A DNA stretch of 64,000 nucleotides from Pseudomonas donghuensis (lineage in GTDB: Bacteria; Pseudomonadota; Gammaproteobacteria; Pseudomonadales; Pseudomonadaceae). Location of the stretch: positions 242,472-306,471 of the forward strand of contig NZ_JH650757.1 in NCBI RefSeq assembly GCF_000259195.1. Reading direction: 5' to 3'. Shown one piece after another: positions 52,841 through 55,470 of the stretch (positions are counted from its first letter, which is position 1; each line of letters starts with the position of its first letter). A program made the position numbers and the translations under genes. The notes below the pieces were generated by a model, which made no database searches, was not told where the DNA came from, and saw only the letters and a list, made by a program, of their open reading frames with translations.

Positions 52841-53452
52841 TCAGCCGTTGACCTGCGGGCGGGCCATCTTGAACAGGTTGCCCAGTTCGAAGTAATCCGC
52901 CGGGCCGCCGCCACGCAGGATCGGCTGGCCCGCAGCGGTGTCATAGATGCCGTCCTTGAGCAGATGCTCGGCGATATGCACGGCCACCACCTCACCCAGC
53001 ACCAGCCAGCTCGGCACCAGCGCTTGGTCGGCACGCTGCAGCTGGATGATCTGGGTCACCTTGCATTCGAACGACACCGGGCTCTCTTGCACCCGCGGCA
53101 CGGCAATCACTTTTGACGCCACCGGGGTCAGACCGCTCAGGGTGAACTCATCGACCTGCGGCGCAACTGCCGCGCAGCTCTGGTTCATGGCCTCGGCCAG
53201 CGGCAGGGTGGCCAGGTTCCAGGCGAACTCGCCGGTTTGCTCGATGTTGTTCAGGCTGTCTTTGCGCCCGACGCTTGCGAAACCGATGATCGGTGGAATG
53301 TAGTTGAAGGCGTTGAAGAAGCTGTAGGGCGCCAGGTTCAGGCGACCTTCGGCGTCCTGGGAGGAAATCCAGCCAATCGGGCGTGGGCCGACGATGGCAT
53401 TGAACGGATCGTGGGGCAGGCCGTGGCCTTTTGCCGGTTCGTAGTAATACAT
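52841..53452 (-). CDS. Flavin reductase-like FMN-binding protein
   Basis: 203-residue protein of the flavin reductase-like (DIM6/NTAB, FMN-binding split barrel) group. Blocks: FNAIVGPRPIGWISSQDAEG, NLAPYSFFNAFNYIPPIIGFA, GEFAWNLAT and ECKVTQIIQL. It would bind FMN and reduce it or act as a small flavoprotein. Start MYYYEPAK (53452) is preferred because the family begins with this YYEP segment; an upstream extension to 53557 has no support. A UUCG-capped terminator of the next gene lies upstream. Confidence 0.88.
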   Translation of the reverse strand: MYYYEPAKGHGLPHDPFNAIVGPRPIGWISSQDAEGRLNLAPYSFFNAFNYIPPIIGFASVGRKDSLNNIEQTGEFAWNLATLPLAEAMNQSCAAVAPQVDEFTLSGLTPVASKVIAVPRVQESPVSFECKVTQIIQLQRADQALVPSWLVLGEVVAVHIAEHLLKDGIYDTAAGQPILRGGGPADYFELGNLFKMARPQVNG

Positions 53453-53526
53453 CTGCGCTGGCCCGAAGGCCTTCCCTGTGAGTAGGCCGCTAGTGTGCCA
53501 AGGCTTTGCCTTGCTGAAAATGACTA

Positions 53527-53546
53527 AGCCCGGCCGAAGCCGGGCT
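53527..53546 (-). terminator. UUCG-capped terminator
   Basis: AGCCCGGC and GCCGGGCT form an 8-bp stem with a TTCG tetraloop on the minus strand, followed by TTAGTCATTTT. It is 20 nt past the stop of the EDGFDRT-repeat gene. Confidence 0.8.
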
Positions 53547-53565
53547 GACTGCGTCACATCAGCGC

Positions 53566-53775
53566 TTAACTGATGCGGTGGACCTGGGTGCGATCGAAGC
53601 CGTCTTCGGCGAATTTGGCGCCGCCGGTGCGATCGAAGCCGTCTTCTGCATAGGTAGCCGACTGGCTTTTCACGGCGCTGAAGTTGTGGCTGTTGGTACG
53701 GTCGAAGCCGTCTTCGGCGAATGCGTTGGCAGCCAGTACCGAGAAGGCCAGGGTCAGGATCAGTTTGTTTTTCAT
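53566..53775 (-). CDS. Small exported protein with three EDGFDRT repeats
   Basis: 69 residues. Signal peptide 1-20 (MKNKLILTLAFSVLAANAFA), cleaved directly before the first EDGFDRT. The heptapeptide recurs exactly at 21-27, 44-50 and 57-63, each preceded by an aromatic plus Ala (FA, YA, FA). At DNA level repeats 2 and 3 are identical over 21 nt, while repeat 1 differs at two synonymous sites, so the peptide is what is conserved. The spacers are Ser/Asn/Lys-rich. Mature protein is small, acidic in the repeats and periplasmic or secreted. Start follows GGAGC. Similar small Pseudomonas proteins with xDGxDRT motifs exist (uncertain memory), but no function is known to me. Confidence 0.8.
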   Translation of the reverse strand: MKNKLILTLAFSVLAANAFAEDGFDRTNSHNFSAVKSQSATYAEDGFDRTGGAKFAEDGFDRTQVHRIS

Positions 53776-53934
53776 GGTCGTTGCTCCGAGGTGCTGAGGG
53801 GTTGTTTGTTTCTATGGGTGTAATGCTACGCTGATAAAATTGATTAAAAAGCGCAAAAAATAACGTATAAGAATCTAAAAAATAGATGTATGTGGCGACA
53901 GTTCGCCCTCATCACCGGCAAGGCCATGCACGGA
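53776..53934. other. AT-rich upstream region of the EDGFDRT-repeat gene
   Basis: Together with the REP and terminator that follow this makes a 315-nt gap. 53820-53890 is strongly AT-rich with A and T runs on both strands and likely contains the promoter of the small exported gene. No ORF or RNA gene recognised. Confidence 0.45.
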
Positions 53935-54090: not shown

Positions 54091-55410
54091 TCAGTCAGTG
54101 GTGATCCGCGAATGCGTGCGGGTGTCCTTCATGAACACATACACCAGCAACGAGCAGGCGATACAGGCAGTCACGTACCAGTAGAAACCGCTCTCCATGC
54201 CGATGCTCTTGAACCATAGCGCCACGTACTCAGCGGTACCGCCGAAGATCGACACGGTCAGGGCGTACGGCAGGCCAACGCCCAAGGCGCGGATTTCGGT
54301 AGGGAACAACTCGGCTTTGACCACGGCGTTGATCGAGGTGTAGCCGCTGACGATGATCAGCGCCGCCATGATCAGGAAGAACGCGCCCCACCAGGTCTGG
54401 ATGGTGTGCAGGGTGGTCAGGATCGGTACGGTGCACAGGGTGCCCAATACGCCGAAGGCGATCAGGATCGGGCGCCGGCCGATCTTGTCGGAGAGGCTGC
54501 CGATGATCGGTTGCAGGCACATGAACAGGAACAGGGTGGCCGCCGAAATGGTGGTCGAGTCGGTGATGCTCATGCCCACCGTGTTCACCAGGTACTTCTG
54601 CATGTAGGTGGTGTAGGTGTAGAAGGCCAGGGTGCCGCCCATGGTCAGGCCGACCACGGTGGCCAGCTCTTTCGGATGGCGCATCAGGGTGCGCATCAGG
54701 CTTTCCTTGGACTTTTCCTTCTTGGTGAAGGAGGCGGTTTCTTCCATGCCGCGGCGCAGGTACAGGGCGACCACTGCGCACAGGGCGCCGATCACGAAAG
54801 GTACGCGCCAGCCCCAGGCATACAGTTGTTCGGTGGTCAGGGTCTGCTGCAGGATGATCAGCACCGCCAGGGCGATGAGCTGGCCGGAAATCAGCGTCAC
54901 GTACTGGAAGCTGGAGAAGAAGCCACGGCGCTCCTTGGTGGCCATCTCGCTGAGGTAGGTGGCCGAGGTGCCATATTCGCCACCCACCGACAGGCCTTGC
55001 ATCAGGCGGGCGATGACCAGCAGCACCGGTGCGGCGACGCCGATGGTTTCATACCCTGGGGTCAGGGCGATGACCAGCGAGCCTGCGCACATCAGCAATA
55101 CCGAGGCCATCAGCGCAGCCTTGCGGCCTTTGCGGTCGGCGTAGATACCCATCAGCCAGCCGCCGATCGGGCGCATCAAAAAGCCCACGGCGAAGATCGC
55201 GGCGGTGTTGAGCAGTTGTGCGGTGGTGTCGCCGGCGGGGAAGAAGGCTTTGGCGAAATACAGGGAAAACGCGGCGTAAACGTACCAGTCGTACCATTCG
55301 ACCATGTTGCCGATCGAACCGCTGAAAATCGACTTGAGTCGGCTTCGGGTGGTTTTTACCGCGGCGGGCGCAATGGCCGCCCCGGTTGGCAGGGTGGTGG
55401 AGTTATCCAT
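54091..55410 (-). CDS. MHS-family dicarboxylate/alpha-ketoglutarate-type transporter
   Basis: 439-residue MFS transporter of the metabolite:H+ symporter family (KgtP/PcaT type). GNMVEWYDWYVYAAFSLYFA is the family TM1 signature, GGWLMGIYADRKGRKAAL the loop 2-3 motif and RLMQGLSVGGEYGTSATYLSE the TM4 block. Twelve membrane helices. Start at MDNSTTL (55410) with AAGG upstream; the five-residue extension has no ribosome site. A GG-N10-GC sigma54 promoter lies about 60 nt upstream and tandem repeats beyond it, fitting control by the adjacent MifR-like regulator. Substrate: a C4/C5 dicarboxylate such as 2-oxoglutarate, by analogy. Confidence 0.88.
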   Translation of the reverse strand: MDNSTTLPTGAAIAPAAVKTTRSRLKSIFSGSIGNMVEWYDWYVYAAFSLYFAKAFFPAGDTTAQLLNTAAIFAVGFLMRPIGGWLMGIYADRKGRKAALMASVLLMCAGSLVIALTPGYETIGVAAPVLLVIARLMQGLSVGGEYGTSATYLSEMATKERRGFFSSFQYVTLISGQLIALAVLIILQQTLTTEQLYAWGWRVPFVIGALCAVVALYLRRGMEETASFTKKEKSKESLMRTLMRHPKELATVVGLTMGGTLAFYTYTTYMQKYLVNTVGMSITDSTTISAATLFLFMCLQPIIGSLSDKIGRRPILIAFGVLGTLCTVPILTTLHTIQTWWGAFFLIMAALIIVSGYTSINAVVKAELFPTEIRALGVGLPYALTVSIFGGTAEYVALWFKSIGMESGFYWYVTACIACSLLVYVFMKDTRTHSRITTD

Positions 55411-55470
55411 CGAAGGGACCTTCATAGTTGTTTTTGTGGAGCGCGCCGAAACGCAGCCTGCCAGGGCTAT

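Follow-up and report, generated by a model that had tools for sequence, protein, structure and literature searches.

A genus-wide family of exported Pseudomonas proteins carrying several copies of a short DGxDRT-type motif

A small exported protein with three EDGFDRT copies

We analyzed a stretch of 64,000 nucleotides of Pseudomonas donghuensis DNA (hereafter, the window), whose minus strand carries at positions 53566..53775 a coding sequence, P0002, for an exported repeat protein of 69 amino acids (69 codons; ATG at 53775, stop codon ending at 53566). The signal peptide MKNKLILTLAFSVLAANAFA (53716..53775, minus strand) was aligned with those of relatives, and its cleavage site was placed by eye at AFA|EDG. 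In the translation, the motif EDGFDRT occurs at residues 21-27, 44-50 and 57-63, encoded on the minus strand by 53695..53715, 53626..53646 and 53587..53607, respectively, and the whole protein reads MKNKLILTLAFSVLAANAFA - EDGFDRT - NSHNFSAVKSQSATYA - EDGFDRT - GGAKFA - EDGFDRT - QVHRIS, with QVHRIS as the C-terminus. An aromatic residue and Ala precede every copy (F-A, Y-A and F-A for copies 1, 2 and 3). The repeat is real, as the first-pass annotation had described it with correct coordinates and residue numbers: shuffling the mature chain 100,000 times never produced a 7-mer that occurred twice. This chain holds two His and neither Cys nor Met. A comparison of codons showed that copies 2 and 3 are identical, and that copy 1 has two synonymous differences (GAC/GAT and CGT/CGC).

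Other readings of the same DNA were tried and rejected. An open reading frame on the plus strand (53578-53823) is read as an antisense shadow, because substitutions follow the pattern expected of the minus-strand frame. An RNA or DNA element was rejected since no Rfam match came near its gathering score and synonymous sites change while the peptide stays. With respect to phage or plasmid cargo, we found no phage match and a match in 1 of 72,556 plasmid records, an array annotated as hypothetical. The best sequence match in the PDB (E 0.27) gave no known fold. No expression or protein evidence for the gene was found in the literature searched.

The gene is preceded by a conserved block of approximately 90 bp, the presumed promoter (53801..53890, minus strand), which was delimited in an alignment of 64 sequences that leaves out L120, a sequence that failed to align there. 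Within this block, TTTTTTGCGCTTTTTAATCAA (53840-53860) contains 12 successive columns conserved at 95% or more. A sigma-70 scan of the upstream region returned no consensus promoter, and control by an activator or another sigma factor therefore appears likely. The 19-base core of the block has one exact site in its own genome and one further site at 3 mismatches; a regulon defined by the block was rejected, because the search with up to 3 mismatches gave that one further site and its reversed control also gave one.

A terminator scan identified an intrinsic terminator, AGCCCGGC-UUCG-GCCGGGCU (53527..53546, minus strand). The hairpin GCCCGGC-N4-GCCGGGC lies 3΄ of the gene, between the repeat and flavin reductase genes, in 59 of the 63 sequences (window included) that extend beyond the gene, and its loop is UUCG in 30. 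An AT-rich promoter and a UUCG terminator had been proposed for this gene; the terminator and a conserved AT-rich upstream region were found, and a sigma-70 consensus was not.

Downstream, behind the terminator, lies a flavin reductase-like gene (Pfam Flavin_Reduct; 52841..53557, minus strand, with a mechanically assigned start), and upstream a kgtP-like MFS transporter gene (54091..55425, minus strand; model NF007710 over its cut-off). Both names rest on family models. We also observed, upstream of the flavin reductase gene, that TTGGCACACTAGCGGC (53486-53501, minus strand) fits GG-N10-GC, which is the spacing of a sigma-54 promoter. Among the 63 sequences that extend beyond the repeat gene, 57 contain TTGGCACACT.

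The motif is under purifying selection and whole units change in number

A scan of named genomes yielded 66 loci, of which 65 were titled Pseudomonas and one was titled Paucimonas MAG. As in the window, the orthologues sit between the kgtP-like transporter and flavin reductase genes. Each of these neighbors was present in 63 of the 66 loci, the exceptions being L126, which lies elsewhere, and two contig-end loci for each neighbor. No protease was recognized among the conserved neighbors probed at the 66 loci. In strain KT2440, kgtP is designated PP_1400 in the excerpt that names it; for the inferred tag PP_1399, we found no literature that also mentions 'putida', and the sole match to the string looks unrelated.

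In P. putida-like orthologues, a first unit is followed by a spacer, by n units of 13 residues (AEDGFDRTxxxxF) and by a last unit with an HRIS-like end, and the second motif begins 23 residues after the first in 58 of 65 sequences. When the contig-cut L085, L088 and L127 were left aside, the remaining 63 loci contained three units in 4 cases, four in 3, five in 17, six in 17, seven in 13, eight in 4, nine in 2, ten in 2 and eleven in 1. Dropping L126, a six-unit gene at another locus, leaves 62 uncut orthologues at the kgtP locus with 3-11 units, 16 of them in the six-unit class; L039 has 13 units by reading. The window protein has the lowest copy number (3) among the orthologues at this locus, and the usual layout together with these counts marks it as a short version of the protein normally found here.

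We examined 261 internal 13-residue units, which come from all 66 loci. D3, G4 and T8 are invariant, 257 units retain D6 and 255 retain R7. The pN/pS values of EDGFDRT were 0.083 for the first copy, 0.054 for the second and 0.080 for the last, compared with 0.543 in the unit-2 linker, 0.315 in the spacer behind unit 1 and 0.292 across the signal peptide. This test used 65 rows (the loci without L126 and L127, plus the window), with 63, 65, 58, 65, 65 and 65 rows for the individual segments; where the contig end cuts the array (L085 and L088), the final visible copy served as the last copy. The motif core is thus under strong purifying selection while the linkers drift. The claim that copy 1 is kept through synonymous changes and that the peptide is constrained agrees with the two synonymous codons and these motif values. 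Free variation of both repeat number and sequence among close relatives had been named as evidence against the first-pass annotation; the number does vary, from 3 to 11 units, and the motif sequence is kept.

Among 737 pairs of EDGFDRT copies taken within genes, only 125 share the same DNA sequence, which shows that amino-acid identity outlasts synonymous change. Linkers were identical in 361 of 475 pairs within a gene versus 329 of 2080 pairs between genes, and this likeness within and unlikeness between genes gives a picture of concerted unit turnover. We considered a special selection for linker uniformity within genes, as linker pN/pS was 0.137 within and 0.543 between genes. However, the value between the closest genes was 0.145; divergence and saturation can therefore explain the contrast, and the claim was dropped.

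Relatives across the genus and the link to PtrA

A profile search (E 0.001) detected relatives in 115 of the 119 genus genomes sampled, and a plain protein search gave matches in 263 of 298 genus genomes at E 0.01, a permissive threshold for such a short query. At the level of the order, 8 of 244 genomes matched, six from the genus and two from another genus of the same family; a third genome of that other genus gave no match in this search. At the level of the class, one of 274 genomes matched besides the window's own (G652, E 4.7e-5); the pattern shows no array there, and this match was treated as chance. In that other genus, the proteins consist of arrays whose units resemble VAENGSERTIDRLHQQM. 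One stretch from that genus (L180:7897-9379) carries two adjacent genes with units of the type AENGS(E/S)(R/Q)(T/S)(I/V)DRLH, for which a mostly helical structure is predicted at low confidence.

Paralogues with xDGxDRT repeats, a survey of which the first pass had proposed, are abundant in the genus. Their arrays are also of the AEDGADRVGGNRV, AADGYDRTGSATV and AEGGSDRLIERN types, with different linkers and with periods of 12, 13, 18 or 21-22 residues around a constant core, and in several of them a spacer of approximately 15-30 residues separates the signal peptide from the first motif. For example, five tandem genes at L178:7385-11903 encode 12-residue AQDGSDRTMNRV arrays (AQDGSDRT type) of 7 to 15 counted units, which is a lineage-specific expansion. 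The largest arrays have 23 counted units, and the window protein is among the shortest members of a large Pseudomonas family with 3 to more than 20 motif copies.

From 123 distinct arrays, we collected 796 units fitting hydrophobic-Ala-[EAQ]-[DGN]-Gly-x-[DE]-[RH]-[TVL]. The Ala is present in 777, D or E in 771 and Arg in 724, frequencies that are biased upward because the pattern itself fixes Gly and limits the other positions, and close relatives are counted separately. Among 122 closed arrays, 110 finish precisely on a unit boundary, their final residue aligning with the junction Ala; over all 122, the last residue is S in 99, G in 9, V in 7, A in 5, R in 1 and N in 1.

A second array gene in the window's genome has six AEGGxDR units and lies between TetR and AsmA genes (L130:4848-5348; contig 3, 174371-174748). 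Its surroundings, TetR - array - AsmA - ferritin-like (Pfam names), define a second conserved locus; visual inspection showed this layout in L181 and L183 and part of it in L180. This array scores 47.6 bits against NF041599, the NCBIfam model 'co-regulatory protein PtrA N-terminal domain', above the cut-off of 31 bits; the window protein (19.6 bits) and its eight-unit orthologue L077 (14.5 bits) fall below it. In the window protein, the motif follows the signal peptide at once (AFA|EDGFDRT, predicted cleavage), as in the NF041599 type, in which PtrA itself (PA2808) has A-E-G-G-x-D-R after its signal peptide. Moreover, DGxDRT and AEGGxDR units are mixed in ten arrays from six genomes (the five tandem L178 genes, L040, L137, L147, L182 and L183), and a flavin reductase-like frame adjoins the L040 array by eye, as at the kgtP locus. 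Such mixed arrays bridge the two types, and the simplest view is that EDGFDRT and AEGGxDR are variants of a single motif. The window protein differs from PtrA in scoring under the NF041599 cut-off, in being an array and in lacking a His/Cys tail.

To compare genomic contexts, we took the best NF041599 match per genome (E 1e-7), which 35 of the 59 genomes searched possess. These PtrA-type proteins carry the motif once, straight after the signal peptide (such a frame was seen in 31 of 35 stretches), and in many members the tail, outside the motif, ends in His/Cys. We then probed approximately 7 kb on each side, contig permitting, for relatives of copper oxidase, CopB, Cu-ATPase, CopR and CzcA; names for the probe genes came from NCBIfam, except for CopB, which had no match at that limit and was named by its MDHSKM repeats. 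At least one copper or heavy-metal gene adjoined the single-motif locus in 29 of the 35 genomes, and none in 6. In contrast, none of the repeat loci from 20 of these genomes lay near the same probed genes (0/20); these 20 control stretches are all profile matches (E 0.001), and the pattern shows an array in 8 of them. The window's own genome also encodes a single-motif PtrA-like protein, AEGGAERSKQF... (L131:4815-5030), near OprD-family porin and CzcA-family RND genes; it reaches 25.7 bits with NF041599, under the cut-off.

Excerpts of the literature describe PtrA as a periplasmic, CopRS-/CzcRS-controlled protein with a role in copper tolerance (PMC8872213, PMC7763554, PMC11195947, PMC7744410, PMC8531726, PMC13209446, PMC6444534) that is induced by copper and zinc (PMC8872213, PMC7763554, PMC11195947, PMC7744410, PMC8531726). 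One review presents it as a protein for copper storage (PMC8872213), another paper describes its role as unclear (PMC7763554), and an older report, discussed among these sources (PMC8872213, PMC7763554, PMC11195947, PMC7744410, PMC8531726, PMC13209446, PMC6444534), has PtrA binding ExsA.

Candidate functions of the repeated motif

We predicted the structure of an eight-unit orthologue with AlphaFold from 18 alignment rows and obtained no confident fold (mean pLDDT 44.0, pTM 0.12); a member from the other genus gave a pLDDT of 47.5 and was mostly helix. Such low confidence with a shallow alignment of repeats is compatible with disorder and is no proof of it. Selection keeps the motif, linkers and copy number are freer, and no fold is predicted with confidence; the simplest reading is a flexible exported carrier. 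We propose, with a probability of roughly 0.45, that the protein is a Sec-exported, intrinsically unfolded carrier of several copies of one short recognition motif. After the predicted cleavage at AFA|EDG, the protein would stay in the envelope, where each motif copy may bind the same partner, a protein or a surface component, and copy number may set avidity or dose. PtrA-type relatives carry the motif once, before their tail, and the arrays keep and multiply it. The different periods among paralogues around a constant core are expected of flexible display. On the other hand, single-motif relatives shed the junction's near-invariant Ala and preceding hydrophobic residue along with the signal peptide, so that these are not obviously part of a binding motif; no binding partner is known, and the window genome's two family loci appear, by eye, to have no neighbor in common.

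We also considered the possibility that the protein is a peptide precursor, in which an envelope protease would cut after each hydrophobic-Ala and free many copies of EDGFDRTxxxxFA. The features of a multi-copy precursor (regular unit boundaries, a conserved unit and an export signal) are all present in the family, which in its concatemer of short peptides behind a signal peptide, its variable copy number and its mostly uniform units within each gene resembles the yeast alpha-factor precursors; unlike these, the arrays have no known processing site or receptor. Hydrophobic-Ala marks the unit borders (Ala in 777 of 796, in a pattern-selected set); arrays keep this junction internally, although single-motif relatives lose it together with the signal peptide. 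The closed arrays mostly stop at the junction position, usually with Ser, and the terminal unit therefore has a comparable end with no cleavage needed; however, arrays are related by descent, and a common C-terminus represents far fewer events than 110. Likewise, the motif stands straight after the signal peptide in kgtP-locus orthologues and PtrA-type relatives, whereas the spacer ahead of the first motif in several paralogues speaks against a precursor, as does the lack of a protease among the conserved neighbors probed. The uniformity of linkers within genes and their divergence between genes would also suit a precursor.

The junctions had been called signal-peptidase-like in the first-pass annotation. 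Signal peptidase I follows an A-x-A rule; the Ala at -1 agrees with it, and the residue at -3 does not, being T and K at the two internal junctions of the window protein. Among the 261 internal junctions, this residue is R in 178, K in 48 and T in 35, and a signal peptidase I site is thus mostly absent from the internal boundaries. With R or K at -3 in 226 of the 261, cleavage by this enzyme is unlikely for most junctions. Taken together, we regard a peptide precursor as conceivable although rather doubtful. Its extended form is unlikely: here the whole genus would produce Sec-exported concatemeric precursors that are cut in the envelope into many copies of a short peptide with a near-invariant DGxDRT core and a lineage-specific tail, this would act as a signal or an envelope ligand, and PtrA-type proteins would be single-copy relatives with the peptide as their mature N-terminus.

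It is improbable that the acidic motif serves as a periplasmic metal buffer that binds copper, zinc or some other cation. The motif is common to PtrA, with its reported periplasmic location, copper and zinc induction and role in copper tolerance in the excerpts above, and single-motif relatives adjoin copper or heavy-metal genes. However, the repeat loci do not (0/20), the His/Cys residues of PtrA-type members lie in the tail rather than in the motif, and the mature window chain, with its two His, has neither Cys nor Met. The first two acidic positions are moreover replaceable, often by A/Q and N/G. The Asp-rich metal site suggested in the first pass is accordingly not supported, and what is retained of that interpretation is an exported, constrained repeat whose gene has a terminator and conserved sequence upstream.

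We assign a similarly low likelihood to a structural role, in which the units would stack into a fiber or a functional amyloid of the matrix. The protein shares with the functional amyloids of the curli and Fap systems (CsgA and FapC) that it is exported and built of short repeats, which here are uniform, with a regular period within most members and a variable copy number. Unlike in CsgA and FapC, the period is not conserved (12 to 22 between members) and the core is charged; furthermore, AlphaFold gave no confident fold, and no secretion or assembly genes were recognized beside the window gene. Finally, neutral repeat expansion without a protein function, to which the freely varying copy number might point, is already contradicted by the selection result (motif pN/pS 0.05-0.08) and by the conserved upstream block, terminator and place, and is extremely improbable.

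We searched the open-access PMC literature for the strings EDGFDRT, DGFDRT, DGYDRT, AEGGSDR, AEGGADR, AEGGYDR, AEGGFDR and AEGGSER, all of which were absent; of six further motif strings one was found, in a human-genetics paper. The same literature gave no paper that by its title would describe a precursor of this kind, and the phrase 'PtrA N-terminal domain' was absent from it. The arrays are apparently an undescribed branch of a family with one known member, PtrA.

A strongly selected exported motif thus has relatives throughout almost the whole sampled genus (115 of 119 genomes), in arrays of up to 23 counted units. The puzzle of PtrA, reported both to bind ExsA and to be a periplasmic copper protein in the excerpts cited above, is thereby tied to a much larger family, and a direct question is raised: what recognizes E-[DG]-G-x-D-R-T?
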